From assembly GCF_027946175.1 (NCBI RefSeq), contig NZ_AP026671.1, forward strand, positions 806,001 to 870,000: a DNA stretch of 64,000 nt, written 5' to 3'. Shown in pieces: positions 4,777 through 32,196 of this stretch (the stretch's first letter is position 1; every line of letters starts with the position of its first letter). The notes below the pieces were generated by a model that saw only the letters and a program-made list of their open reading frames with translations, was not told the origin of the DNA and made no database searches. A program made the translations under genes and the position numbers. This DNA is from Nitratiruptor tergarcus DSM 16512. Its GTDB lineage: Bacteria > Campylobacterota > Campylobacteria > Campylobacterales > Nitratiruptoraceae.

Positions 4777-5972
4777 AAAGAGCTCTCTCTTCTCTTTTTA
4801 TTGCTGAAACCTTCTCAAGGGCTCTTAGTTTTTTTATCATCATCTATGTTTCAAGAGTACTTGGAGTAACTGAACTAGGATATTGGTCTTATGCACTTGC
4901 AATCAATGCTTTTTTGATCATCGCTACCAATCTAGGACTTGATGTCTATGCTATGGTAGAAGCCACGAAAAATATTAGAAAAAGATCTTCACTATATATC
5001 AACACTATCACCATAAAAGCACTGCTTACCTTTGGAGCTTTAGGAGTCTCGTGGAGCTTACATAGCTATATGGAGCTAAAAGTTTTGCTACTTATCACTA
5101 TGCTTTTGTGTGCAGATTTGCTTTCTACCATCACACCAGTATGGTACTACCAAGCTGCTGAAGATTTTAGAACCATTTCTCATATTAAAATCACACAAGC
5201 CGTGAGCTATTTTTTCTTGGTTCTTCTTTTGCTATGGTGGTTTGAAAATATCATCACGTTGGCAGTAGCTTACATAGGCGCGAATTTGCTCAGTGCAGTT
5301 ATTTTTGGGAAAAATATTTTTAAAGAACTTAGCTTTTCTTCTACCAAGCCTCATCATTGGCACAAAATCATCAAAGTCTCCATCTATCTAGGAGGTGCAC
5401 TCTTTCTCAATCAGATATATACTAATACAGACAAAATCATGATAGCCCATATGCTTGGCATCAAGTACAATGGCTACTATGAAGCTGGATACAAACTCTA
5501 TGCACTTGTACCGGTAATCTTTAGCACTGTATGGACAGTCTTTGCACCAAAAGTGACAAAGAGTATAGATGCAATGAGATCATATAAATGGAGTATTGTT
5601 ATTCTCTCTTTTTTCATTGCTGCAGTCTTTTATTTTGGTAAAGATTTCATTATCACGCTTCTTTATACAGAAAAATTCGCCCCTACCATATCTTTGATGC
5701 CTCTTTTTGCTTTAAGTATAATAGTACTTGCCTGGAGCTATGTTTATACCTCTCTCCTCACAATTTTAGAAAAAAGTAAAGAGTGGTTTTGGATAACATT
5801 TGCTTCAGCTACTTTGAATATTTTGCTCAATTTTTTCTTAATTCCACATTTTAGACTTCAAGGAGCACTCTATGCTACGATAATAGCAGAGAGTGTGGCC
5901 GCAATTGGAGGATATTATGTGTATAAAAAGGTTAAAGAAGTGTCCTCAGCTCCATCGCATACCACAAGATAA
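4773..5972 (+). CDS. Wzx-like polysaccharide flippase (MOP superfamily)
   Basis: This 399-aa protein is almost wholly hydrophobic helices with short basic loops, about 10-12 membrane segments, starting with FIAETFSRALSFFIIIYVSR, typical of polysaccharide biosynthesis proteins of the Wzx/RfbX group. Such proteins move undecaprenyl-linked sugars across the inner membrane. It begins inside the last codons of the GT4 gene (ATGA overlap), so the enzyme likely makes part of the substrate that this protein flips. The 3' end overlaps the convergent CopD-like gene by 41 bp. Confidence 0.85.
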   Translation: MKRALSSLFIAETFSRALSFFIIIYVSRVLGVTELGYWSYALAINAFLIIATNLGLDVYAMVEATKNIRKRSSLYINTITIKALLTFGALGVSWSLHSYMELKVLLLITMLLCADLLSTITPVWYYQAAEDFRTISHIKITQAVSYFFLVLLLLWWFENIITLAVAYIGANLLSAVIFGKNIFKELSFSSTKPHHWHKIIKVSIYLGGALFLNQIYTNTDKIMIAHMLGIKYNGYYEAGYKLYALVPVIFSTVWTVFAPKVTKSIDAMRSYKWSIVILSFFIAAVFYFGKDFIITLLYTEKFAPTISLMPLFALSIIVLAWSYVYTSLLTILEKSKEWFWITFASATLNILLNFFLIPHFRLQGALYATIIAESVAAIGGYYVYKKVKEVSSAPSHTTR

Positions 5973-13620: not shown

Positions 13621-14642
13621 ACTCTGCCTTTTTTAAGATATCTTATGAAATAGCGATCAAGACTCAATTCTTTTGGAATGGGTGCGTTTTTGAGCAGATG
13701 CTCTGCAAGTATTTTAGCTACATATGGCCCAAAGACAAACCCTCTGCCACCCAATCCATTTATTATATAAATATTTTTCCTAGGGAGTGAATCGAGATCG
13801 AGTTTTTTAAAATTGGTTATGCGAGGGGTACTTTTTGTATCAATAAGCTCTCCAATAATGGGGAAGTGATCACTCACACTACTACGTACTCCACAATACA
13901 TCTGCGCTATCTCATAGCTAAATGCTCCTACCATTTTACGCGCCTCTTCAAAAAGCATTGATGGTGGTTGTGGCGTGGCACCTTCACGGTTGTGTGTAGC
14001 TCCAATGCTCACTATTCCATCAATATTAACTGAAATAGATACACGTTTATGCATACAATAAGGCAGGCTCAATGCTGTTTTGACATCAAAACGCACCCCG
14101 CCAAGTTTACCAATTCTAATATAAGGCTCGTCTATCAGCTCATCATAAGAGCCCGTAGCTACAACAACCTTTTTTGCTCTTACGTCACCTACATCAAAAT
14201 AGTCGCTTCTTTGCTCAATAGATGCATACTTTTTATAGAGAGGTATTTTGTGAGCTAGAGATTGAAGATGCTTTTTTGCTTTGAGAATGCCAGCTTCAGG
14301 AAAGAAAAATCTCCCCTCCTTACAAGAAAATGGTATATCAAGGAACTTTTCAAGTCCAGTAAAATCTTGATTATCTTTTGGAAGTCTTAGCAGACCTGTT
14401 TGATAAAAAAAGGGAGCGTTTTTGTAAAAATCTACTGCAAATTTGAAAGCTTCGTTTGTGATACGCTGTAAATCACTCCCCTTGCCTATGCGCGGAGAGA
14501 TAAAAGCTCCAGCAGCCCCGCTTCCGCCAGCTCCGATTTCGCTTTGCTCAACGAGAGCTACTTTTGCACCACCTTCAAGTAAAAAGTGGGCGGTATGCAC
14601 TCCAGCACTCCCACCCCCAATCACTACAAAATCATATATCAC
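13617..14642 (-). CDS. FAD-dependent oxidoreductase (DAO family; resembles the MnmC oxidase domain)
   Basis: The 341-aa protein has an N-terminal FAD-binding GGGSAGVHTAHFLLEGGAKV and an acidic end of the second strand, then GAGGSGAAGAFISPRIGKG, similar to the ASG-NPAG-x-x-P-x-L motif in the C-terminal domain of MnmC. The C-terminus has GLGGRGFVFGPYVA, the second FAD contact. MnmC makes mnm5-uridine in tRNA wobble positions, but the methyltransferase half of MnmC is absent here. An amino-acid oxidase of the glycine oxidase type is the alternative. It overlaps glyS and hemH by 4 bp each. Confidence 0.75.
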   Translation of the reverse strand: MIYDFVVIGGGSAGVHTAHFLLEGGAKVALVEQSEIGAGGSGAAGAFISPRIGKGSDLQRITNEAFKFAVDFYKNAPFFYQTGLLRLPKDNQDFTGLEKFLDIPFSCKEGRFFFPEAGILKAKKHLQSLAHKIPLYKKYASIEQRSDYFDVGDVRAKKVVVATGSYDELIDEPYIRIGKLGGVRFDVKTALSLPYCMHKRVSISVNIDGIVSIGATHNREGATPQPPSMLFEEARKMVGAFSYEIAQMYCGVRSSVSDHFPIIGELIDTKSTPRITNFKKLDLDSLPRKNIYIINGLGGRGFVFGPYVAKILAEHLLKNAPIPKELSLDRYFIRYLKKGRV

Positions 14643-16669
14643 ACTGAAATCTCTTTGATATCTGCAATTTTTCTAAACTCTTTATAGATGGATGCTATAA
14701 GATTTTTTCTATTAGTACGCAGTTTTTCATCCTCAGCATTGACTAGAACATTATCAAAAAAGAGATCAATTTTGTGTTTAAGATCAAAAAGTGCCGTAAG
14801 CCTTGTCTCAATATCTGGATAATCGACGCTTGCTCGTTTTTTAAACTCTTCATAGAGCTCTCTTTCATACTCACTTGTAAAGAGGCTCTCATCTACACGA
14901 AGATCTTGCTCTACATCGATATCTTTGACAATATTTGCAACACGCTTGAATGTAGTAAAGATCTCTTTAAAATCGCTGCTTTGCACAATATTTGCAAGAG
15001 CTTTAATGCGTTTGTCGATTTCTAGCAAGTCTCTTTCTTGTGTAGCAATAACTGCACTCACCACTGATGGATTGACATCATAAAACTGATAGAGACGCTC
15101 TAAGAAAAACTCTACAAGTTTTTTAGTATCAAACTCTCTATACTCACTCGCTAGTTCTGTAAAAACCTTTTCTAAATCAAAATGCAGATTGTATGCTAAA
15201 ACAATGCGTATAACCCCAAGAGCTGCACGCCGCAAACCAAAAGGATCTCGTGAGCCTGTTGGAATCTTTCCAACGCTAAAGAGTGCCATAAGAGTATCAA
15301 GCTTTTTTGATAAGGCTACGAGTGCACTAAAGAGACTACTTGGAAGCTCACTCTCCTCACCTTGCGGTAGATACTGCTCTTTGATTGCAAGAGCAACCTG
15401 TTCATCTTCACCTTGCGCAAGAGCGTAGTAGTAGCCCATAATTCCTTGGAGCTCTGTGAACTCATAAACCATTTCAGTGAGCAAATCTGCATAGCTAAGC
15501 ATCACTGCTCGCTCTAAGAGCGCTTTTGCTTGGCCTGGCTCTTGGAAGAGATTTTCATACTGGGCATAGAGAGCTTGAGCGATTTTAAGCTCACGCAGAG
15601 TTTTATCAAATAGCGTTCCCAAGCCATTCATAAAAACTACCTCTTTAAGCCCCTCAAAATCGAGCCCTTTTTTAAGATCATTCTCCCAAAAAAAGAGCGC
15701 ATCGGAGAGTCTAGCTTTAAGTACTCGCTCATTACCCCTTACTACTACATCAAAATCTTGCGTATAGGCATTGCTTACAACAACGAAGAGATTTTGAAGC
15801 TTGCCATCTTTATAGACTGGAAAATAGCGCTGATGCTCTTTCATGCTCGTTACAATTACCTCTGGAGGCAGTTGCAAAAACTTCTCATCAAAACCACCCT
15901 CTAGTGCAGTTGGGAATTCGGTTATTGTGACAACTTCAGCTAAAAGATCTTCATCCTTATCAATAGCAACACCGCTTTTTTGAATATTTGCAAACTCATT
16001 TTCAATCTTTTCATACCTCGCATCGGGACAGAGGATAACTCCCCCCTCTTTGAGCACTGCAAAATACTCTTTTGGATTTTCTATTGTAACAGGTTCAAGA
16101 GAGACACTGCGGTGCACATAGGTAAAATTGCTAGCAGTGATGCCAAAAAGTTCTGCATCGATAAACTCACTTCCTAAATTGATAACTGCCCAGCGTACAG
16201 GCCGGATAAATTCTGCCTTCACATCTCCCCACCGCATCTTTTTGCCAAAATCAAGACTTGCAAGCCACTGCTGCACCATGTGGGGGAGTATATCTTTTGC
16301 TTGGCGTCCAGGAATCTCTTTTTTATAGTATAAAACCTCTTTATTCCCTCTCTTGATAGTAGAGAGATCTTTCACATCTACGCCACACTTTTTTGCAAAA
16401 CCTATAGCTGCTTTTGTCGGTTCTCCATCTTTAAAAGCGATTTCAAGAGGTGCGCCAAAAAACTCCTCATAGGTGGTAGGCTGCTCAGTCGGAAATTCAC
16501 GGTGCCACAACACCAACCTTCTTGGTGTGTAGTAAAATGAAAATCCGCTTTTGAGGCTAAAATCCTCTAAAATATTTTCCCATTTTTTCTCAATATTTGG
16601 CAGCTCTTTCAAAAAAGGTATTGCAGGAAGCTCCTCAACACCTATTTCAATCAACAACGTTGTTTGCAT
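14639..16669 (-). CDS. glyS: Glycine--tRNA ligase beta subunit
   Basis: The 676-aa protein starts MQTTLLIEIGVEELPA, the standard GlyS N-terminus. An upstream in-frame start at 16699 would add ten non-conserved residues, while AAAGGGTG precedes the chosen ATG. Conserved segments include MRWGDVKAEFIRPVRWAVIN, TSMKEHQRYFPVY and GSRDPFGLRRAALGVIRI. With the alpha subunit (glyQ, not in this window) it charges tRNA-Gly. Length is normal. It overlaps the FAD oxidoreductase by 4 bp. Confidence 0.96.
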   Translation of the reverse strand: MQTTLLIEIGVEELPAIPFLKELPNIEKKWENILEDFSLKSGFSFYYTPRRLVLWHREFPTEQPTTYEEFFGAPLEIAFKDGEPTKAAIGFAKKCGVDVKDLSTIKRGNKEVLYYKKEIPGRQAKDILPHMVQQWLASLDFGKKMRWGDVKAEFIRPVRWAVINLGSEFIDAELFGITASNFTYVHRSVSLEPVTIENPKEYFAVLKEGGVILCPDARYEKIENEFANIQKSGVAIDKDEDLLAEVVTITEFPTALEGGFDEKFLQLPPEVIVTSMKEHQRYFPVYKDGKLQNLFVVVSNAYTQDFDVVVRGNERVLKARLSDALFFWENDLKKGLDFEGLKEVVFMNGLGTLFDKTLRELKIAQALYAQYENLFQEPGQAKALLERAVMLSYADLLTEMVYEFTELQGIMGYYYALAQGEDEQVALAIKEQYLPQGEESELPSSLFSALVALSKKLDTLMALFSVGKIPTGSRDPFGLRRAALGVIRIVLAYNLHFDLEKVFTELASEYREFDTKKLVEFFLERLYQFYDVNPSVVSAVIATQERDLLEIDKRIKALANIVQSSDFKEIFTTFKRVANIVKDIDVEQDLRVDESLFTSEYERELYEEFKKRASVDYPDIETRLTALFDLKHKIDLFFDNVLVNAEDEKLRTNRKNLIASIYKEFRKIADIKEISV

Positions 16670-25015: not shown

Positions 25016-25804
25016 ATGAATCGGCTTGTTCTCTCGTTTTTCATCACACTATTTCTCTATGTACTGCTCTTTTTGATAGTGCGTATTGATCTGCAAAAAC
25101 CACCGATATCGACAGAGTCAAAACATCGATTTAATATAAGTGACCTGCGCCTTATCAAACAAAAACCTCTACAAAAATCGCACATACAACCAAAACCCAA
25201 AAGTCCAAAAGTAGAAAAAAAGAGAGCAAAAAAAGAGCAGCAAAAACAGATAAAAAAGCTGCATAGAAGTAAAAAGAGAAAAAAAAGTATAAAACTTTTA
25301 AAAAAGAGACAAGCGGTAAAAAAAATTGTTAAAACCTCTTCTGCCCATAAAAAAACAAAAACAAAAGAACACAATCAAACAACGCAAGCCATACCCTCTC
25401 TCACACAGCTATTTGCAAAAAAAAGGATCCCCAAAAAAAGCTCAAACAATCTTCCTCCTGAACTACGAAAGCTCTATAAAGATGAGTTTGAGAGTTTTAC
25501 GAAAGAGCAAAAAAAGTTTATTCAAAACAACCTAACAAAAATTGGTTCTATCACGCAAAAATACCTCTATCTCAGAGGCTATCCCTATATAGCAATAAAA
25601 ACGAAGCAAGAAGGGGTCAATATTGTAGAATTCTATCTCCATCCCAATGGAGACATTACCAATTTACATATCATAAAATCAAGTGGTTACGAAGCACTGG
25701 ATAAAAACTCTCTAGAAACAATCAAAACAGCTTATAAAGACTATCCTCTCCCAACCCAAACAACAAAGATAAAAATCTATGTGCGCTATAGTATAATCTA
25801 CTAA
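25016..25804 (+). CDS. tonB: TonB-like energy transducer
   Basis: The 262-aa protein has an N-terminal membrane anchor (LVLSFFITLFLYVLLFLIV), a long Lys/Arg-rich linker (about residues 40-120) in place of the usual Pro-rich spacer, and a C-terminal TonB domain (VEFYLHPNGDITNLHIIKSS, then GYEALDKNSLETIK) ending in the YVRYSIIY strand. It should couple the proton motive force, through ExbB and ExbD (not seen here), to outer-membrane receptors. A receptor gene lies on the other strand 2.5 kb away and the 3' ends of tonB and the GGDEF-EAL gene overlap by 4 bp. No Shine-Dalgarno precedes the ATG, so the message may be leaderless. Confidence 0.85.
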   Translation: MNRLVLSFFITLFLYVLLFLIVRIDLQKPPISTESKHRFNISDLRLIKQKPLQKSHIQPKPKSPKVEKKRAKKEQQKQIKKLHRSKKRKKSIKLLKKRQAVKKIVKTSSAHKKTKTKEHNQTTQAIPSLTQLFAKKRIPKKSSNNLPPELRKLYKDEFESFTKEQKKFIQNNLTKIGSITQKYLYLRGYPYIAIKTKQEGVNIVEFYLHPNGDITNLHIIKSSGYEALDKNSLETIKTAYKDYPLPTQTTKIKIYVRYSIIY

Positions 25805-27753
25805 ATATCACAATCCTTTTCTACATACTGCTTTGGCTTATCAAAGTAGAAACCTTGAGCATAATCTACACCTAAAGATCGGATTTTTTCAAAAATCTCT
25901 TTATTACTTACATACTCAGATACAGTCTTTATACCCTTTTTATGAGCAAAATCTACAATTGTTGAAACAATAAGTTCAGAATCTTCATTTTCACAAATAT
26001 TTTCTATGAGTGAACCATCAATTTTAATGTAATCTATAGGAAGTTTAAGTATATGCTCAAAATTTGAATACCCAGTACCAAAATCATCAATTGCTATTTG
26101 ACATCCTATCTCTTTCATTTCAGTAAAGAAATTATAGACAAGTTCATAGTTTTCAATTCCCTCAGATTCTACAATCTCTAATATAATTTTGTTTTCTACC
26201 TCATATTTTTGAATACTCTCTTTGAGATGAGCTACGATATTTGGATCTAAAATATCAAGAATAGAGAGATTGATTGAAAAACTACAGGTACTTTGACTAA
26301 AATATTGACAACTCTTCTCTATCATAATACCTGTTAATCTGTTGTAATATCTACTCTTTTTGGCAATCTCTAAAAAAACACCAGGAGAGACAACGCTTCC
26401 ATTATCATCAATGATACGTATGAGACACTCATACCCCTTTGGTTTACGTGTTTGTGTATTGACTATAGGTTGAAAAAAGGGTACTACTCTATCAAGTTCA
26501 ATGGATCGTTTGAGTTTTTTAATCCACTCAATATTTTTCTCATACTCTTTTTCAACTTTTGCATCATCATACTCATAAATTGCATAGACTCTTCGCGCTT
26601 TTTTTGCTTTTTTCAAAGCTATATCAGCTTTTTCCAATATTCCCTTTTCTCCCGCTGCTGCACCCATACTTACATGCAAAGAGAGTTCCTTATCTCCATG
26701 AACAAAAACCATTTTCTCTATATTCTTAGTAAGACTATCAAGGAAGAGTTTAATATCATCTCTACTCATTTTATTATGAAAGAGAAGTGCAAACTCATCA
26801 CCTCCCAGCCGGTAGAGCCTTGGATTATTTGTATTAATAAGATTTTTTAACTTTACCGCAAAATCTTTGAGGATCTTATCACCGATTTTATGTCCAAAGA
26901 GATCGTTAATCTCTTTAAAACTATCGATATTAATAATCACTATACTTGCATGAGGAAGTTGGCTCAAATCCTCTTGGAGTTTTAATCTATTTGCAAGACC
27001 AGTTAATGAGTCGATATAGAGTCGATTCCGGAGTTCCTTTGTCTTTTCTTGCACCTTCTCTTCAAGAATTTTATTCATATTTTCCTGTTTGAGGGCATAC
27101 TTCTTGATGCGATTTTGCATCGACTCTAATACTCTTGCTATTGAACCTATTTCATCTTCTCTATGGATGAAATCTGGGAAATGGAGATCTTTTTTTGGAC
27201 TATAATCTGCAAGAGCAGCGACAATAGCCTTAAAAGGAGAGAGGAGCTGCTCAAGATAAACACTAAAAAGAAACAATAAAAGTGCAATCCCTCCTAAAAA
27301 CATAAGAAGAATTTTTTTGTATTTATCAATGATTTCCTCATAATGCTCATAGGAATATACTACATATATATTGCCAATTTTCTCTTTTGAATTTGGTTTA
27401 GTAATCGTTTTCGTAAATACAAAATAGTCTTTGTTGCGAATATTCTGTTTCATATATGTAGCTACCACTTTTTTATTATGTATTAACGTGATACCTAAAA
27501 TATTTTTGTTTGCTTTGAGAATATTTTCTATAAGCTGTTTTGCTTGATCATCCATACCAAGATAGAGATCCATAGAGACTGTAGGGATAATAGTATCAAT
27601 AACCACTTCCGCTTTTGATTTTTCCAAACTTTTAAACGCCTCTTTCCCTACTGCTTCAAATGTATAGAAAATGAGTAGTATTAAAGAAATAGATACAATA
27701 AAAAAATATGTAAGAATTCTTCGACTAAGTGATTTGCTAATATTAAGCAGCAT
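25801..27753 (-). CDS. Membrane GGDEF-EAL protein with periplasmic sensor and HAMP domain
   Basis: The 650-aa protein has a membrane helix near residues 13-33, a periplasmic domain of about 120 residues, a second helix (ILLMFLGGIALLLFLFSVYL), a HAMP-like linker (EDEIGSIARVLESM), a GGDEF domain with RLGGDEFAL near 316, and an EAL domain. The inhibitory RxxD site is missing. The EAL motif is ECL, but the other phosphodiesterase residues are present: Asn in SINLSI, Glu in EIVESEG, DDFGTGYS, Lys in IKIDGS, Glu in VSEYV and Gln in YAQGFYF. It could both make and break cyclic-di-GMP. The layout recalls YfiN, and a YfiR-like gene ends directly before its ATG, so inhibition by that periplasmic protein is likely. 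Confidence 0.9.
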   Translation of the reverse strand: MLLNISKSLSRRILTYFFIVSISLILLIFYTFEAVGKEAFKSLEKSKAEVVIDTIIPTVSMDLYLGMDDQAKQLIENILKANKNILGITLIHNKKVVATYMKQNIRNKDYFVFTKTITKPNSKEKIGNIYVVYSYEHYEEIIDKYKKILLMFLGGIALLLFLFSVYLEQLLSPFKAIVAALADYSPKKDLHFPDFIHREDEIGSIARVLESMQNRIKKYALKQENMNKILEEKVQEKTKELRNRLYIDSLTGLANRLKLQEDLSQLPHASIVIINIDSFKEINDLFGHKIGDKILKDFAVKLKNLINTNNPRLYRLGGDEFALLFHNKMSRDDIKLFLDSLTKNIEKMVFVHGDKELSLHVSMGAAAGEKGILEKADIALKKAKKARRVYAIYEYDDAKVEKEYEKNIEWIKKLKRSIELDRVVPFFQPIVNTQTRKPKGYECLIRIIDDNGSVVSPGVFLEIAKKSRYYNRLTGIMIEKSCQYFSQSTCSFSINLSILDILDPNIVAHLKESIQKYEVENKIILEIVESEGIENYELVYNFFTEMKEIGCQIAIDDFGTGYSNFEHILKLPIDYIKIDGSLIENICENEDSELIVSTIVDFAHKKGIKTVSEYVSNKEIFEKIRSLGVDYAQGFYFDKPKQYVEKDCDI

Positions 27754-28299
27754 CTATTCTATAATCCTTGCTATATTATAGAATGTATTTGCAAATTGGA
27801 AACTGTTTTCCAAAAGTACCTTTTTATTTATATATATTTGTACTCTTTTTTCTATAGAAACATTTATTAAAAAACCTTCTTGCAGATCTTTTTTGTCATA
27901 CGTAAAAGAGTAGATGTTTTTACCTCTTATCATTTGTGCAACTCTTTTCAATCTCTGTGGTGCAATTTTGAGAACATAAATTGCATCAGTTTTTTCTACA
28001 CAACTATTATCGGAAAGACAATCAGATATATTGAGGATTTTCACTTCTAATGAAAAATTTTCAATTCCTGTTGAAAATTTTTTATAGATACTCTCCTGTA
28101 ATTTTTGTGCTACTAATTTATCCACATCTTCATAGATAACAGCAAAATCTATTTTGTGATCTTGTATGTTTTTTTCAATATTTTTATCTAACACTATTAT
28201 TTTTGGATAGAGAGCTGCTTGAGTTTTGAGCAGCAAGGCGTTGTATTGATAAGCAAATATTTGTGAAATAAGAATAAATATAAGCAACAATGATCGCAT
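27754..28299 (-). CDS. YfiR-like periplasmic protein
   Basis: The 181-aa precursor has a signal peptide (RSLLLIFILISQIFAY) followed by a small alpha/beta domain with a Cys pair (NISDCLSDNSCVEKTD), KIDFAVIYEDVD and IYVLKIAP. Size, export, Cys pair and gene neighbours fit the YfiR/DUF4154 group, whose studied member binds and silences the diguanylate cyclase YfiN in the periplasm. The ATG at 28299 overlaps the stop of the TonB-dependent receptor (TGATG) and its stop abuts the GGDEF-EAL start. The YfiR call is moderate: similarity was judged by eye. Confidence 0.6.
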   Translation of the reverse strand: MRSLLLIFILISQIFAYQYNALLLKTQAALYPKIIVLDKNIEKNIQDHKIDFAVIYEDVDKLVAQKLQESIYKKFSTGIENFSLEVKILNISDCLSDNSCVEKTDAIYVLKIAPQRLKRVAQMIRGKNIYSFTYDKKDLQEGFLINVSIEKRVQIYINKKVLLENSFQFANTFYNIARIIE

Positions 28300-30335
28300 C
28301 AAAAACCCTTTTTGATTGTAAACATCATCGTTCGCCCCTTCGTATAAGGATAATCATCTAAATATGTATTTGGTGGGGCTGGATATCTCCCTTTGGTATT
28401 AAAGATATTTTTCAATGCCAACATAATTGAAGTATCTTTTGTAGTTTCATATTGGAACGAGAGATCTAAAAATGAAAAACTTTTCAAAGAATCTCTCGAA
28501 TCAAAATCGAAACGCTTTTTCTTTCCTATATAGCGAAAAAGCATTGTTGTAGAAAAATTTGGGGTGAATTGTTTGAGAAAATAGAATTTAAAAAGATGAT
28601 TTGCAATATTTGGTAACTCTTTGTGACACCCACATTCTCCGTAGACATAGGAGTAATTACCATAAAATTTCAATGTATTACTTAACATCTTTTTCCACTC
28701 AAACTCCAAACCATAGAGTCTATTCATAGAAATATTGCGAAACTCTCTCTCTTCATTAATATTGTTAATGACCTTACTGTTTTTGAGATAAAAGAGAGTT
28801 AATTGCATATATTCATCTAATGAATATTTTTTGATATAACTTGCTTCATATGCGCTTACCTCTTCAGGGCGAAGATCAGGATTTCCAACACGTGTAGTAT
28901 TATTAATAGTAAACATCTCCTGCCATGATGGGTTACGATGGGATCTGCTATATTTCAACTTAAAAACATCCTCATTGTCCAATGCCCACACTGCACTAAA
29001 TCGCGGGTTAAGTTTATGATATTTATGAAGAATTCTTTCATAATTCATGCCAAAATAGAGTGTAAGAGCATCACTTACAGCAAAAGTATCATCTATATAG
29101 AAAATATGCGATCGTCTTTTTGCATTAGGCTCCGCAAAAGGGAAGATCGTAGAGTAATCCACCATCGCATCACTTATACCTGTTCTATCTGTTGTAATTG
29201 TCTTTACTTCTAGTGTTCTTTCTAAGGTATTGCGATAACCAGTAGTGATGCTATGTTTTTCAAATCCTTTGTAGCGGATTTTTAGATCTATATAATCACT
29301 CTCATTTTTGTTTTTGTAGTAGCCCTTTACTCCTGCAGCATAGATAACATATTTTCCAGGATGGAAAGGATCAGGATAGACAAGTCCCGGCGGAGCAACA
29401 TGCGATGAGCTTGTAAAGGAGTCTTTTTTGACTCCTGCTTTGAAAAAGAATTGTAAATCATCAGATAATTGTTTTTTCATACCAGCTTCATAAATTGTAC
29501 TAGGAAGTCGGAGATAATCATTTTTATGTGGATGAATAAAGCTTATACCAAAAGCATTACCACTCTTGTAATAGTTATTCCTATATTTGAAATAGAGATC
29601 TTTATAATCAAAATGCAAGGCAAAAGAGTAATTATTAAGCCATAGTTGCGCTGGTGCAGTAGTAGTGAGTCTTTTATTTACTTCTCCCATTGCACCGGTG
29701 GCAAAAATATCTGGACCACTACTTATTTGTTTGTCATCTTTTTGTAAATAAAATTCTGTATAGATATGCAGATCATCAAAAGAGAGATTTTTATAAAAAC
29801 CAAAACTTTTATAGTTGTAACTACCATATTTCCCAAAAACTCGTGCAGATTCATTAACACCAAAATTTTCTGCGTAGGTAGTAACGTATATAGATCCTGC
29901 ATAAATATTTACTCCCTCGCTTTTACTACCAGGCCCTCGTATTACCTCAATTCTTTTAATAAGTTCTATTGGCATCGCTAAATAGTGCGAATATTGATCT
30001 ATCATTCCGTCATTAACCAACACCCCATCAATAAAAAGCTTACTTTGTCCGTAAGCTAAAGGATTTGAACCGCGGAAAATTGGTGTCTTTATACCTAAAT
30101 TATCACCATAAATATCTACACCTGGTACAAGACTCAGCGCCTCTTCAAGATTTGAAACTCCGGCTTTTTCCAGCTCTTTTCCCAAATAGACTGAGACAAT
30201 ATGCGGTTGATAGAATCTATTGGTTTTAGTAACCTCTACAACTTTGTCTATTTGTGAAAGCTCTTGGACAAGTATATTGATATTTGTGGCATAAAGAGAT
30301 AGTATTGTTATAAAGAGGATTGCAGTTACTCTCAT
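28299..30335 (-). CDS. TonB-dependent outer-membrane receptor
   Basis: The 678-aa precursor has a signal peptide, then a plug domain (LEEALSLVPGVDIYGDNLG, then IFRGSNPLAYGQSKLFIDGV and LIKRIEVIRGPGS) and a long beta-barrel rich in aromatic strands that ends in IKKGF with the terminal Phe expected for outer-membrane insertion. NPDLRPEEVSAYEASY is the typical mid-barrel motif. A canonical TonB box is not obvious; VEVTKTN near residue 35 is a candidate. It imports or senses an unknown ligand. It overlaps the acyltransferase gene by 4 bp and the YfiR-like gene by one base. Confidence 0.93.
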   Translation of the reverse strand: MRVTAILFITILSLYATNINILVQELSQIDKVVEVTKTNRFYQPHIVSVYLGKELEKAGVSNLEEALSLVPGVDIYGDNLGIKTPIFRGSNPLAYGQSKLFIDGVLVNDGMIDQYSHYLAMPIELIKRIEVIRGPGSKSEGVNIYAGSIYVTTYAENFGVNESARVFGKYGSYNYKSFGFYKNLSFDDLHIYTEFYLQKDDKQISSGPDIFATGAMGEVNKRLTTTAPAQLWLNNYSFALHFDYKDLYFKYRNNYYKSGNAFGISFIHPHKNDYLRLPSTIYEAGMKKQLSDDLQFFFKAGVKKDSFTSSSHVAPPGLVYPDPFHPGKYVIYAAGVKGYYKNKNESDYIDLKIRYKGFEKHSITTGYRNTLERTLEVKTITTDRTGISDAMVDYSTIFPFAEPNAKRRSHIFYIDDTFAVSDALTLYFGMNYERILHKYHKLNPRFSAVWALDNEDVFKLKYSRSHRNPSWQEMFTINNTTRVGNPDLRPEEVSAYEASYIKKYSLDEYMQLTLFYLKNSKVINNINEEREFRNISMNRLYGLEFEWKKMLSNTLKFYGNYSYVYGECGCHKELPNIANHLFKFYFLKQFTPNFSTTMLFRYIGKKKRFDFDSRDSLKSFSFLDLSFQYETTKDTSIMLALKNIFNTKGRYPAPPNTYLDDYPYTKGRTMMFTIKKGF

Positions 30336-30928
30336 TTATGCCTCTTTTTATATCGTTGTAGTAACATAGGATTCTCCCTTTCAATGAGGCTTGTAGAGAT
30401 CAAGCATGGATAGCGTGGAGATCCATAACCATTCTGTTTTGGTCCAATAATTTGCAAATGTACTTTGACCATTTTCATAAGCCTTATAAAGCTCTTTTCC
30501 ATAGCTGTAAAAGCGTATTCCATTCCCATCTCTTTAGCCATAAAATAGATCTTCTCCTTTACAAAATGTTCTAGTATATATTTAGTATCGTGCATATTGC
30601 GATAATTTTTATGCAAAAGTATGCGAGATACCTCCCCCAATTTTTCACGTTTATATGTCATGAGTAGATTTTTCACATCCGGATTGATTTCTAAATGTTC
30701 TTGTGTAGGATAGCCTATAGGGGAGTGGTGTATAAGTCTTGCTGTTGCTACTATTTCGCAATTATCATTCATTGCCACAAAATGTTTTGCGTAAGGATCA
30801 TATTTATCAAATTCTAATCTTTTGCTATTTTTAGGAAAGAACTCTAACTCCTCACATAATATTTCATAGCGAAATCGATAAATTTTCTCCATAATATTTT
30901 CATCATCTACTTCGAAAAAATAAAACAT
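30332..30928 (-). CDS. N-acyltransferase of the LuxI/FeeM-like (PEP-CTERM-associated acyltransferase) type
   Basis: The 198-aa protein opens with KIYRFRYEILCEELEFFP, the RxxR/Y-like first motif of autoinducer synthases and N-acyl amino acid synthases, then EFDKYDPYAKHFVAM and ATARLIHHSPIGYPTQ, EVSRILLHKNYRN and YAFTAMEKSFIRLMKM. These fit the GNAT fold that transfers an acyl chain from acyl-ACP to an amine. No exosortase or PEP-CTERM protein is visible, so a free acylated signal or an acyl-amino acid is the best guess. It overlaps the receptor gene by 4 bp. Confidence 0.65.
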   Translation of the reverse strand: MFYFFEVDDENIMEKIYRFRYEILCEELEFFPKNSKRLEFDKYDPYAKHFVAMNDNCEIVATARLIHHSPIGYPTQEHLEINPDVKNLLMTYKREKLGEVSRILLHKNYRNMHDTKYILEHFVKEKIYFMAKEMGMEYAFTAMEKSFIRLMKMVKVHLQIIGPKQNGYGSPRYPCLISTSLIERENPMLLQRYKKRHK

Positions 30929-30940
30929 TAAGCCTTAATC

Positions 30941-31867
30941 CTATTTGTTTAAAGTATTGAGTGCATCTTTGTAGATAGGCTCATCTATAAAACCATATTT
31001 TTCATCCACAAAGCCTGTAATTCCTTGCTTTGCCATCTCTTCAAAACGTTGTTTAATATAAAGAGCCTTTTGCTTATCAAAACTTTTCAAAATTCTATTA
31101 ACTATTGCTACTTGCTGTGGCGATATACACCCCTTTGCTTCAAAACCCATCTCTTTTTCATACCTGCACCACTCTTCAAACTCTTCAAGATTTTTATAAT
31201 CTTGATAGACAAAAGAGACTGGCTTAATACCTACACTTGCACAATCAACAAGGAATTTTGCAAGTATATAATTGACAGTAGGGTTGGAAATTTTTAGTAA
31301 ATCTTGTCCAATTTTTAAATCTGCAAAAAGATCAAGTATTCCCAAATAATAAGCTTTAATACGAGGAGAGATAGCAAGATCTTGCAAATTGCTAAAAGCC
31401 TCTTTTGTCTCAATAGAAAAATGGAGTTTTATAGGGTCTACAACAATTTCGCAGCTTTTTTGCACATCCTTTTTTGATCGTATTTTTGGAATACGAATTG
31501 CATCAGGATAAAAATCGTTTAAAAAGGCAATCTCTTCCATGCCTCCTTCATCAAGTGCATTTACTCGCACTACAAGCATTGGAAGATTTTTTCTTGATTG
31601 CTGTAAAAAAAGAGCGGTAGCCAAAAGAGCCATTTTTTTATACTCTTTAGCCACTCCATCTTCAAGATTGAGAATGGCTACATCGCACCGCAACTCATCA
31701 AGCTTATTGAGATGTTTAGCTCTGTGGGCTGATACCATAAGTGCTGAAGCAAAAGAGATATCTTTGATAGGCTGCCTGCGCGGTTGCAATCTTTGAAGAA
31801 AAAAATCCTCATCTTTGCTCTCAATTGCTGTTTGTATTTTAGCTACGAATGCTGGATCAAATATCAT
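30941..31867 (-). CDS. CitE-like HpcH/HpaI-family aldolase/lyase
   Basis: The 308-aa protein has VSAHRAKHLNKLDELRCDVA, the metal-site-like LNLEDGVA, a substrate Arg in VVRVNAL, FSIETKEAF and GFEAKGCISPQQVAIVNRIL, all typical of the citrate lyase beta/CitE family. Members cleave or condense CoA-bound hydroxy acids such as citramalyl-CoA or malyl-CoA. No citrate lyase alpha or gamma gene is present, so it acts alone. It sits between the cytochrome c (4-bp overlap) and the acyltransferase (12-bp gap); whether it supplies an acyl precursor is speculation. Confidence 0.8.
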   Translation of the reverse strand: MIFDPAFVAKIQTAIESKDEDFFLQRLQPRRQPIKDISFASALMVSAHRAKHLNKLDELRCDVAILNLEDGVAKEYKKMALLATALFLQQSRKNLPMLVVRVNALDEGGMEEIAFLNDFYPDAIRIPKIRSKKDVQKSCEIVVDPIKLHFSIETKEAFSNLQDLAISPRIKAYYLGILDLFADLKIGQDLLKISNPTVNYILAKFLVDCASVGIKPVSFVYQDYKNLEEFEEWCRYEKEMGFEAKGCISPQQVAIVNRILKSFDKQKALYIKQRFEEMAKQGITGFVDEKYGFIDEPIYKDALNTLNK

Positions 31868-32196
31868 TTTCTCTTCTTTGTAAGATAGTAATAGAGTGTT
31901 TTTATCTCTTTATTTGTAAGAAAATATTGAGGCATCAATCTGTGATCCTTAGTTATAAGAGCTTGACGAAATTTTGTAAAAGTGAGTTTAGTTATATCAG
32001 GGGCTTTTATGATAACAGTACGATTACCATCTTTATATCGGCCAAGCTCCAGCCCTCTTCCATCCTCACCATGACATCTATCACAGCCTATTCCTCGAGG
32101 ATTATGATAGAGCATTTTAGCGTACTCCTCTTTTGTAATAAAGTCATTAGCTAACATCACTGTTAAACATAGAGAAAAGAAAAAAATTTGACGCAT
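31864..32196 (-). CDS. Small periplasmic cytochrome c
   Basis: The 110-aa precursor has a signal peptide (IFFFSLCLTVMLA), one heme site CDRCHGEDG and a Met ligand in LMPQYFL, the layout of a class I monoheme cytochrome c of about 90 residues. It is the first gene of the minus-strand operon with CitE-like, acyltransferase and receptor genes and diverges from folD. Confidence 0.88.
   Translation of the reverse strand: MRQIFFFSLCLTVMLANDFITKEEYAKMLYHNPRGIGCDRCHGEDGRGLELGRYKDGNRTVIIKAPDITKLTFTKFRQALITKDHRLMPQYFLTNKEIKTLYYYLTKKRK

Follow-up and report, generated by a model that had tools for sequence, protein, structure and literature searches.

Four consecutive minus-strand genes in the 64,000-nucleotide window from Nitratiruptor tergarcus DSM 16512 (the whole stretch of DNA that was analysed) form a conserved evolutionary unit encoding a LuxI/FeeM-superfamily acyltransferase, a TonB-dependent outer-membrane receptor, a YfiR-like periplasmic protein and a membrane GGDEF-EAL protein, and we put at about even the chance that they constitute a self-contained autoinducer-like sensing circuit. 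The presence of this gene set is firmly established; the signalling role we infer from it. In such a circuit, the LuxI-superfamily enzyme would acylate an amine or amino-acid-like acceptor, and the product would exit the cell and be bound at the outer membrane by the operon's own TonB-dependent receptor. The receptor, standing in the place that YfiB holds in YfiBNR, would relay its state to the YfiR-like protein within the periplasm, and this protein would in turn change how it holds the GGDEF-EAL protein by its periplasmic domain, so altering c-di-GMP, whether upwards or downwards. Slightly short of even, in our judgement, is the broader proposal that this is a new cell–cell signalling architecture in Campylobacterota, in which a LuxI-superfamily synthase and a TonB-dependent receptor share an operon, a self-made molecule is read outside the cytoplasm and passed through the YfiR-like protein to GGDEF-EAL, and receiver-only genomes with decayed synthases are eavesdroppers.

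The sequence-only reading had described six coupled minus-strand genes, and all six open reading frames (ORFs) were indeed present, with neighbours overlapping or separated by at most 12 bp. From high to low coordinates, they encode a small monoheme cytochrome c (31864–32196; CxxCH in the translation and a weak PF13442 match below cut-off), a CitE-like (HpcH/HpaI) lyase (30941–31867; PF03328, 76.8 bits), the 198-residue acyltransferase, a predicted signal or acyl-amine synthase (30332–30928), the 678-residue receptor (28299–30335), the YfiR-like protein with its signal peptide (27754–28299) and the GGDEF-EAL protein (25801–27753). The cytochrome c and CitE-like ORFs overlap by 4 bp, as do those of the acyltransferase and the receptor, and 12 bp separate the CitE-like ORF from that of the acyltransferase. 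The YfiR-like ORF starts with TTG at 28302 (27754–28302), and an alternative ATG at 28299 would overlap the stop codon of the receptor in the sequence TGATG; the YfiR-like and GGDEF-EAL ORFs abut. As had also been noted from the sequence, a tonB gene (25016–25804, plus strand; PF03544, 61.9 bits) converges on the end of the operon, overlapping the GGDEF-EAL gene by 4 bp. Pfam matches exceeded curated cut-offs for the receptor plug and barrel, GGDEF, EAL, HpcH_HpaI, TonB_C and Acetyltransf_5. Scans for promoters and terminators gave signals no better than those of shuffled sequences.

The order acyltransferase, receptor, YfiR-like protein, GGDEF-EAL protein recurs beside differing neighbours in dozens of genomes of the Nitratiruptoraceae, Hydrogenimonadaceae, Sulfurimonadaceae and Arcobacteraceae, and because of this recurrence we do not regard the arrangement as chance. 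Conservation of the set in relatives, proposed earlier as a test, holds for the core four across several families but not for the CitE-like and cytochrome c genes. The CitE-like gene accompanies the core in Nitratiruptoraceae and does not adjoin it in Hydrogenimonadaceae or Sulfurimonadaceae, the cytochrome c gene is distributed in the same way, and at one locus (L074) the two lie about 6 kb away from the core, next to folD. The six-gene operon was rejected as a functional unit; these two genes are neighbours of the core in Nitratiruptoraceae only and are not supported as parts of the system, which reduces the conserved unit from six genes to four. The tonB gene occupies the same position at L023, L024, L026, L027, L029, L030, L033, L034, L036 and L039, with conservation beside the module confined to Nitratiruptoraceae.

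The GGDEF-EAL protein comprises, in order, a transmembrane segment, a periplasmic domain, a second transmembrane segment, a HAMP-like region (a weak match), GGDEF and EAL, with hydrophobic segments near residues 9–37 and 144–174. The domain call made from the sequence was borne out, with EAL (PF00563, E = 1.6e-62) and GGDEF (PF00990, E = 2.4e-25) both over cut-off. The EAL catalytic residues E442, N495, E526, E529, D556, D557, K577, E613 and Q633 are invariant in 55 of 55 homologues. A GGDEF motif is present in the window protein (40 of the 55 homologues begin the motif with S), and an RxxD I-site is absent from this protein. CHASE8 gave no match in the window protein and 15.2 bits, below cut-off, in the homologue at L084, compared with 117 bits for Escherichia coli DgcN, and a profile comparison with DgcN yielded no significant match. 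For the YfiR-like protein, the earlier call was supported by fold and was weak by sequence profile. Its AlphaFold2 model (pLDDT 93.0) matched YfiR structures in Foldseek with E of about 1e-5 and a TM-score of up to 0.74, scores that half-size substrate-binding proteins also approach, whereas PF13689 reached 16.9 bits (E = 0.007) against a cut-off of 24.9. PF13689 matched even weakly in only 3 of 15 relatives and gave no match in a search of the protein's own genome, so the assignment rests on fold. None of the conserved cysteines of YfiR appeared among the conserved columns of the YfiR-like alignments, and profile comparison with E. coli YfiR gave no significant match.

Among 397 genomes of the phylum, 30 carry the acyltransferase, 48 the YfiR family and 28 both (Fisher P = 9e-28, uncorrected for relatedness). 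A scan of 84,980 genomes with the single protein P0004 returned no matches, and a tighter alignment returned 36 loci, of which all those assigned to a lineage belong to Campylobacterota. The receptor–YfiR–output trio also occurs without the acyltransferase (L128, L129, L136–L138, L139 and L142), so it can work on other ligands and is a general sensor. Acyltransferase-linked receptors fall mostly in one clade, with 7 label changes compared with 13.8 after shuffling and none of 500 shuffles as low. Six members of this clade have no adjacent acyltransferase gene: two (G183 and G300) adjoin a decayed copy, two (G336 and G410) come from genomes that carry the enzyme elsewhere, one (G235) is a second copy and one (G420) is in a genome without the enzyme. 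In G005, acyltransferase and receptor are both gone from between the CitE-like and YfiR genes, YfiR and GGDEF-EAL remain, and no other close receptor was found. The mirror-tree correlation between acyltransferase and receptor (0.88) is not above that of other pairs of module proteins and therefore gives no argument for contact. The G410 acyltransferase is 40% identical to that of its genus-mate versus 73% to that of Arcobacter, which supports a swap; a joint switch of receptor and enzyme to another sub-clade in this genome was not relied on, as the receptor resembles the two to the same degree (76 versus 75%).

A LuxR-type AHL-binding (Autoind_bind) domain was found in 0 of 26 genomes searched, including 16 of the genus. 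This absence, the receptor phylogeny, the enzyme pseudogenes and the joint loss in G005 fit a system that would make a signal, sense it and convert it to c-di-GMP, and the earlier idea of a self-contained signal system is thus partly supported, though not its extension to the CitE-like and cytochrome c genes. Counting against a signal are the enzyme-free trios, the nutrient habit of TonB receptors, the missing profile match to E. coli YfiR and the missing CHASE8 match in the window.

The receptor itself has a barrel (PF00593, 100.6 bits) and a plug (PF07715, 53.5 bits), both over cut-off; the plug begins at residue 44 in Pfam, and no N-terminal signalling domain of the FecA type (STN) was found. 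The usual ligands of TonB receptors are scarce nutrients such as iron complexes and cobalamin, which they typically import. By profile, the nearest families are B12, siderophore and heme receptors, and the nearest solved structures are PhuR, CirA and BtuB. The main rival to a dedicated signal is metallophore-type uptake combined with sensing: the enzyme would make an acylated chelator or surfactant-like carrier, the receptor would re-import the loaded compound with TonB energy, and YfiR and GGDEF-EAL would report uptake, nutrition coming first and signalling second. The adjoining tonB throughout Nitratiruptoraceae suits this scheme, and retention of the receptor after enzyme loss would fit siderophore cheating as well as eavesdropping. 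A single acyltransferase would, however, be a very small chelator pathway, no further biosynthetic gene accompanies the core from family to family, and no single characterised substrate class closely matches the receptor. We consider this rival unlikely, but a serious contender.

The acyltransferase is confidently predicted to adopt a LuxI-superfamily GNAT fold. The best PDB matches to its AlphaFold2 model (pLDDT 93.7) in Foldseek were the AHL synthases TofI, BjaI and LasI, followed by FeeM (2g0b; E = 3.1e-7, TM-scores 0.61/0.66), so the original LuxI/FeeM assignment, for which the GNAT fold had been proposed as a test, is upheld. It scored 47.4 bits against PF13444 (Acetyltransf_5; cut-off 22.4), and R20, E39, D41, D44, E99, S101 and R102 are invariant among 30 aligned sequences. 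Its best NCBIfam match, TIGR03694 (86.8 bits, under the curated cut-off of 111.95), also matches all 30 aligned relatives. A PEP-CTERM/exosortase link was rejected because the enzyme does not track exosortase in the genus: exosortase matches over cut-off occur in G000, G002, G004, G008 and G009, and the acyltransferase is present without exosortase in G003 and G013 (96% and 98% complete).

The TIGR03694 match and weak matches to models of the ornithine-lipid synthase OlsB would suit a role in the envelope, in which the receptor ligand is external and the receptor or sensor depends on an envelope component (a lipoprotein, an aminolipid or the N-terminus of a protein) that the enzyme modifies; the trios that work without an acyltransferase are compatible with this. 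We think it improbable, given that fold and signature residues lie nearest AHL synthases and FeeM, that we noticed no OlsA-like partner next to the core genes, and that the enzyme gene is unlinked (G336 and G410) or decayed where the sensor trio stays intact. Less probable still is a true AHL synthase in a cell that uses AHLs, with the receptor replacing LuxR as AHL importer or sensor. Besides the top structural matches, the enzyme retains R, E-x-D-x-x-D and E-x-S-R in the LasI alignment, but it misses the AHL-synthase Pfam threshold (PF00765, 22.7 bits versus a cut-off of 24), and its pairing with an LCM carboxyl methyltransferase in some relatives would suit an N-acyl amino acid, whose carboxyl is free, rather than a lactone. 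The LuxI N-terminal region carries a Trp, which is absent from the conserved columns of the acyltransferase, and the missing LuxR-type domain also speaks against AHLs. Mere hitch-hiking of the acyltransferase with a sensor operon, to which largely vertical conservation within families and conserved flanks lend something, is very hard to reconcile with the same four-gene order beside many different neighbours in several families, a receptor clade that tracks the enzyme and the joint loss in G005.

If the make–sense–convert circuit is real, it would add a way of perceiving acylated signals at the outer membrane and tie a LuxI-like enzyme directly to c-di-GMP. Vent and sulfur-oxidising Campylobacterota, in which AI-2 genes have been described (PMC2628731), would gain an acyl-signal system of their own, and a class of TonB receptors, together with the enzyme-free receptor–YfiR–GGDEF/EAL operons, would acquire a ligand hypothesis. 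A literature search, with thin coverage of subscription papers, found no paper on this gene set.

Several known systems share parts of the module. TIGR03694 acyltransferases associated with PEP-CTERM/exosortase supply the best NCBIfam match, but the window enzyme is below cut-off and does not follow exosortase. The NCBIfam families TOL_0243 and TOL_0244, a YfiR-like protein and a TonB receptor with adjacent locus numbers, match the window proteins weakly, with scores (14.3 of 125 and 51.5 of 645 bits) that fall well short of the cut-offs. The N-acyl amino acid synthases of the FeeM type share the LuxI superfamily and fold, but sequence similarity is about 13% over the structural alignment, and the gene for the module enzyme has a constant place next to those for a receptor and a c-di-GMP protein. 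The combination of YfiR with a GGDEF-EAL or kinase output is an established modular pattern (Malone 2012, PMC3375315), and GGDEF-EAL outputs have been described for divergent YfiN homologues (PMC3375315). As in YfiBNR (AwsXRO/TpbB) of Pseudomonas and E. coli, a YfiR-fold periplasmic protein adjoins a membrane-bound GGDEF protein that has a periplasmic domain, and an outer-membrane component would act earlier in the pathway. In the module, however, that component is a TonB-dependent receptor rather than the Pal-like lipoprotein YfiB, which was not found within the module at the loci examined; the output carries EAL, a synthase gene is included, and the YfiR-like protein has neither the conserved cysteines nor above-cut-off similarity to YfiR. 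As in LuxI/LuxR, a LuxI-superfamily synthase shares one locus with a candidate dedicated receptor, and receiver-only genomes recall LuxR solos, but here the receptor, a TonB-dependent protein, sits in the outer membrane and would feed a c-di-GMP output, in a genus in which no LuxR-type AHL-binding domain was found.

Inspection of open reading frames confirmed the positions of the six minus-strand genes and of the convergent tonB gene (25016-25804) in this 1.94-Mb genome. The cytochrome c (31864-32196) and CitE-like (30941-31867) genes overlap by 4 bp, a gap of 12 bp separates the latter from the acyltransferase gene (30332-30928), and this in turn overlaps the receptor gene (28299-30335) by 4 bp. 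The receptor and YfiR-like (27754-28299) genes share a TGATG overlap if the ATG at 28299 is taken as the start codon of the latter, and the YfiR-like and GGDEF-EAL (25801-27753) genes abut directly. Pfam upheld the receptor, GGDEF, EAL, HpcH/HpaI and TonB_C identities, and matched the 198-aa acyltransferase to Acetyltransf_5 (47 bits) with a sub-threshold match to Autoind_synth. TIGR03694 was its top NCBIfam match, with a score under the cut-off, and was matched by all 30 aligned relatives, in which the LasI-signature positions are invariant. Consistent with the LuxI/FeeM-like acyltransferase proposed in the sequence-only reading, the AlphaFold2 model (pLDDT 93.7) matches the AHL synthases TofI, BjaI and LasI, with FeeM next.

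The YfiR-like assignment stood for the fold (AlphaFold2 pLDDT 93.0; TM up to 0.74 against YfiR structures), with a weak PF13689 sequence match; because half-size substrate-binding proteins match the model about equally well, 'YfiR-like fold' is the proper strength of the claim. The GGDEF-EAL protein has a periplasmic domain between two hydrophobic segments, plus a HAMP-like stretch. Across 55 homologues its EAL catalytic residues are unchanged, and the first GGDEF position, glycine here, is serine in most; on this residue pattern, phosphodiesterase output is the better conserved predicted activity. In one genome this gene appears as two open reading frames of 240 and 388 aa (L036:12211-14160), which would reflect a frameshift, a genuine division of the gene or an error in the sequence.

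Our neighbourhood survey covered one phylum, Campylobacterota, to which all fetched loci with an assigned lineage belong. It reduced the proposed six-gene unit to a core of four genes present in several families, with CitE and cytochrome c outside the core. In Nitratiruptoraceae (including L112, from an uncultured Nitratiruptor), CitE, cytochrome c, tonB, the core and the same outer flanks are kept in nearly all enzyme-bearing genomes, as far as contigs extend. The Hydrogenimonadaceae core (L037, L040, L119, L120, L123) lies at a different genomic place, directly downstream of an RND transporter (ACR_tran) gene wherever upstream sequence exists (L037:10384-13494, L040:5946-9056, L119:6826-9936, L123:6819-9935); this transporter is a possible exporter of the enzyme product. 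In Sulfurimonadaceae the neighbours of the core include pepA and genes for a peroxiredoxin and a GMC oxidoreductase. The core also occurs in Arcobacteraceae (L114, L118), and in a fifth group (L084-L088) has the GGDEF-EAL gene adjacent in divergent orientation. CitE and cytochrome c form a separate pair, since in L074 they adjoin folD, ~6 kb from the core. Some of the surveyed genomes were assembled from metagenomes, and one contig of 3.7 kb (L038/L091) could be misbinned.

Among 397 genomes from the phylum, 30 have a full-type acyltransferase match, 48 the YfiR-like family and 28 both. The p-value of this co-occurrence is inflated by relatedness. More informative is the receptor tree, on which the enzyme label takes 7 changes, versus 13.8 in shuffles. 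Six members of the main receptor clade have no enzyme beside them. In two of these, a decayed enzyme gene occupies exactly that site (G183, L130:6044-6305; G300, L132:3450-4096); with L124:1337-1640, these decayed or truncated genes directly upstream of the receptor are candidate receiver-only states. Two more have their sole enzyme gene elsewhere in the genome (G336, G410), one is an extra receptor copy whose genome also carries a complete module (G235), and one genome has no enzyme (G420). In a congener (G005), enzyme and receptor are both gone between CitE and YfiR, with YfiR and GGDEF-EAL kept; no further close receptor was found in that genome. The losses observed are of the enzyme alone or of enzyme and receptor together. 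Leaving aside the L116 enzyme, whose surroundings are cut off by a contig end, no core-type enzyme retained after receptor loss was seen among the genomes examined; divergent solo enzymes exist (L041, L042).

In enzyme-bearing loci, the ligand would be produced by the cell itself. The search for LuxR-type AHL-binding domains in the genus gave no match, which makes a classical LuxI/LuxR circuit unlikely. An LCM-type (PF04072) carboxyl methyltransferase gene overlaps or abuts the start of the enzyme gene in L118 (6178-7065), L115 (9109-9996), L125 (9108-9995) and L090 (8420-9292). These loci belong to Arcobacteraceae, to a single Sulfurimonadaceae genome and to G025; the window's own genome has no LCM match. 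The pairing suggests that the enzyme product has a free carboxyl group, as in N-acyl amino acids, and that it would be methyl-esterified in LCM lineages. Separately, a short exosortase-like protein (~169 aa; PF09721, 35 bits), carried by some genus members only, is encoded far from the module (G000:C1:1629535-1629975).

A metallophore with sensing, instead of a signal, would account for almost all of these data, since genomes that have only the receptor look as much like siderophore cheaters as like eavesdroppers; the argument against it is that its pathway would have one enzyme. Envelope-lipid acylation is possible, but leaves unexplained that the sensor can persist where the enzyme gene is decayed or lies elsewhere in the genome. 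Hitch-hiking of the enzyme with the sensor operon is disfavoured by the recurrence of the same gene order beside differing neighbours.

Each part of the module belongs to a known family. The open literature searched, with incomplete coverage, yielded no description of the four-gene combination, which would be a new signalling architecture if a match between product and receptor were shown. The receptor-YfiR-output trio also occurs without the enzyme, with GGDEF-EAL output (L128, L136-L138) or, in Arcobacter relatives, with a histidine-kinase-type protein and then a response-regulator-like gene (L139:5659-7038, HATPase_c confirmed, with 4973-5671; L142:7274-9324). One genome, G025, has four YfiR-like genes, two of them beside GGDEF/EAL- or kinase-like genes (L140:4998-6978 and 14259-16233) with no core-type receptor directly adjacent. 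The trio's alternative outputs match the published modularity of YfiR/YfiN (PMC3375315, which nowhere mentions TonB), and on this ground we interpret the trio as a general device for sensing at the outer membrane.
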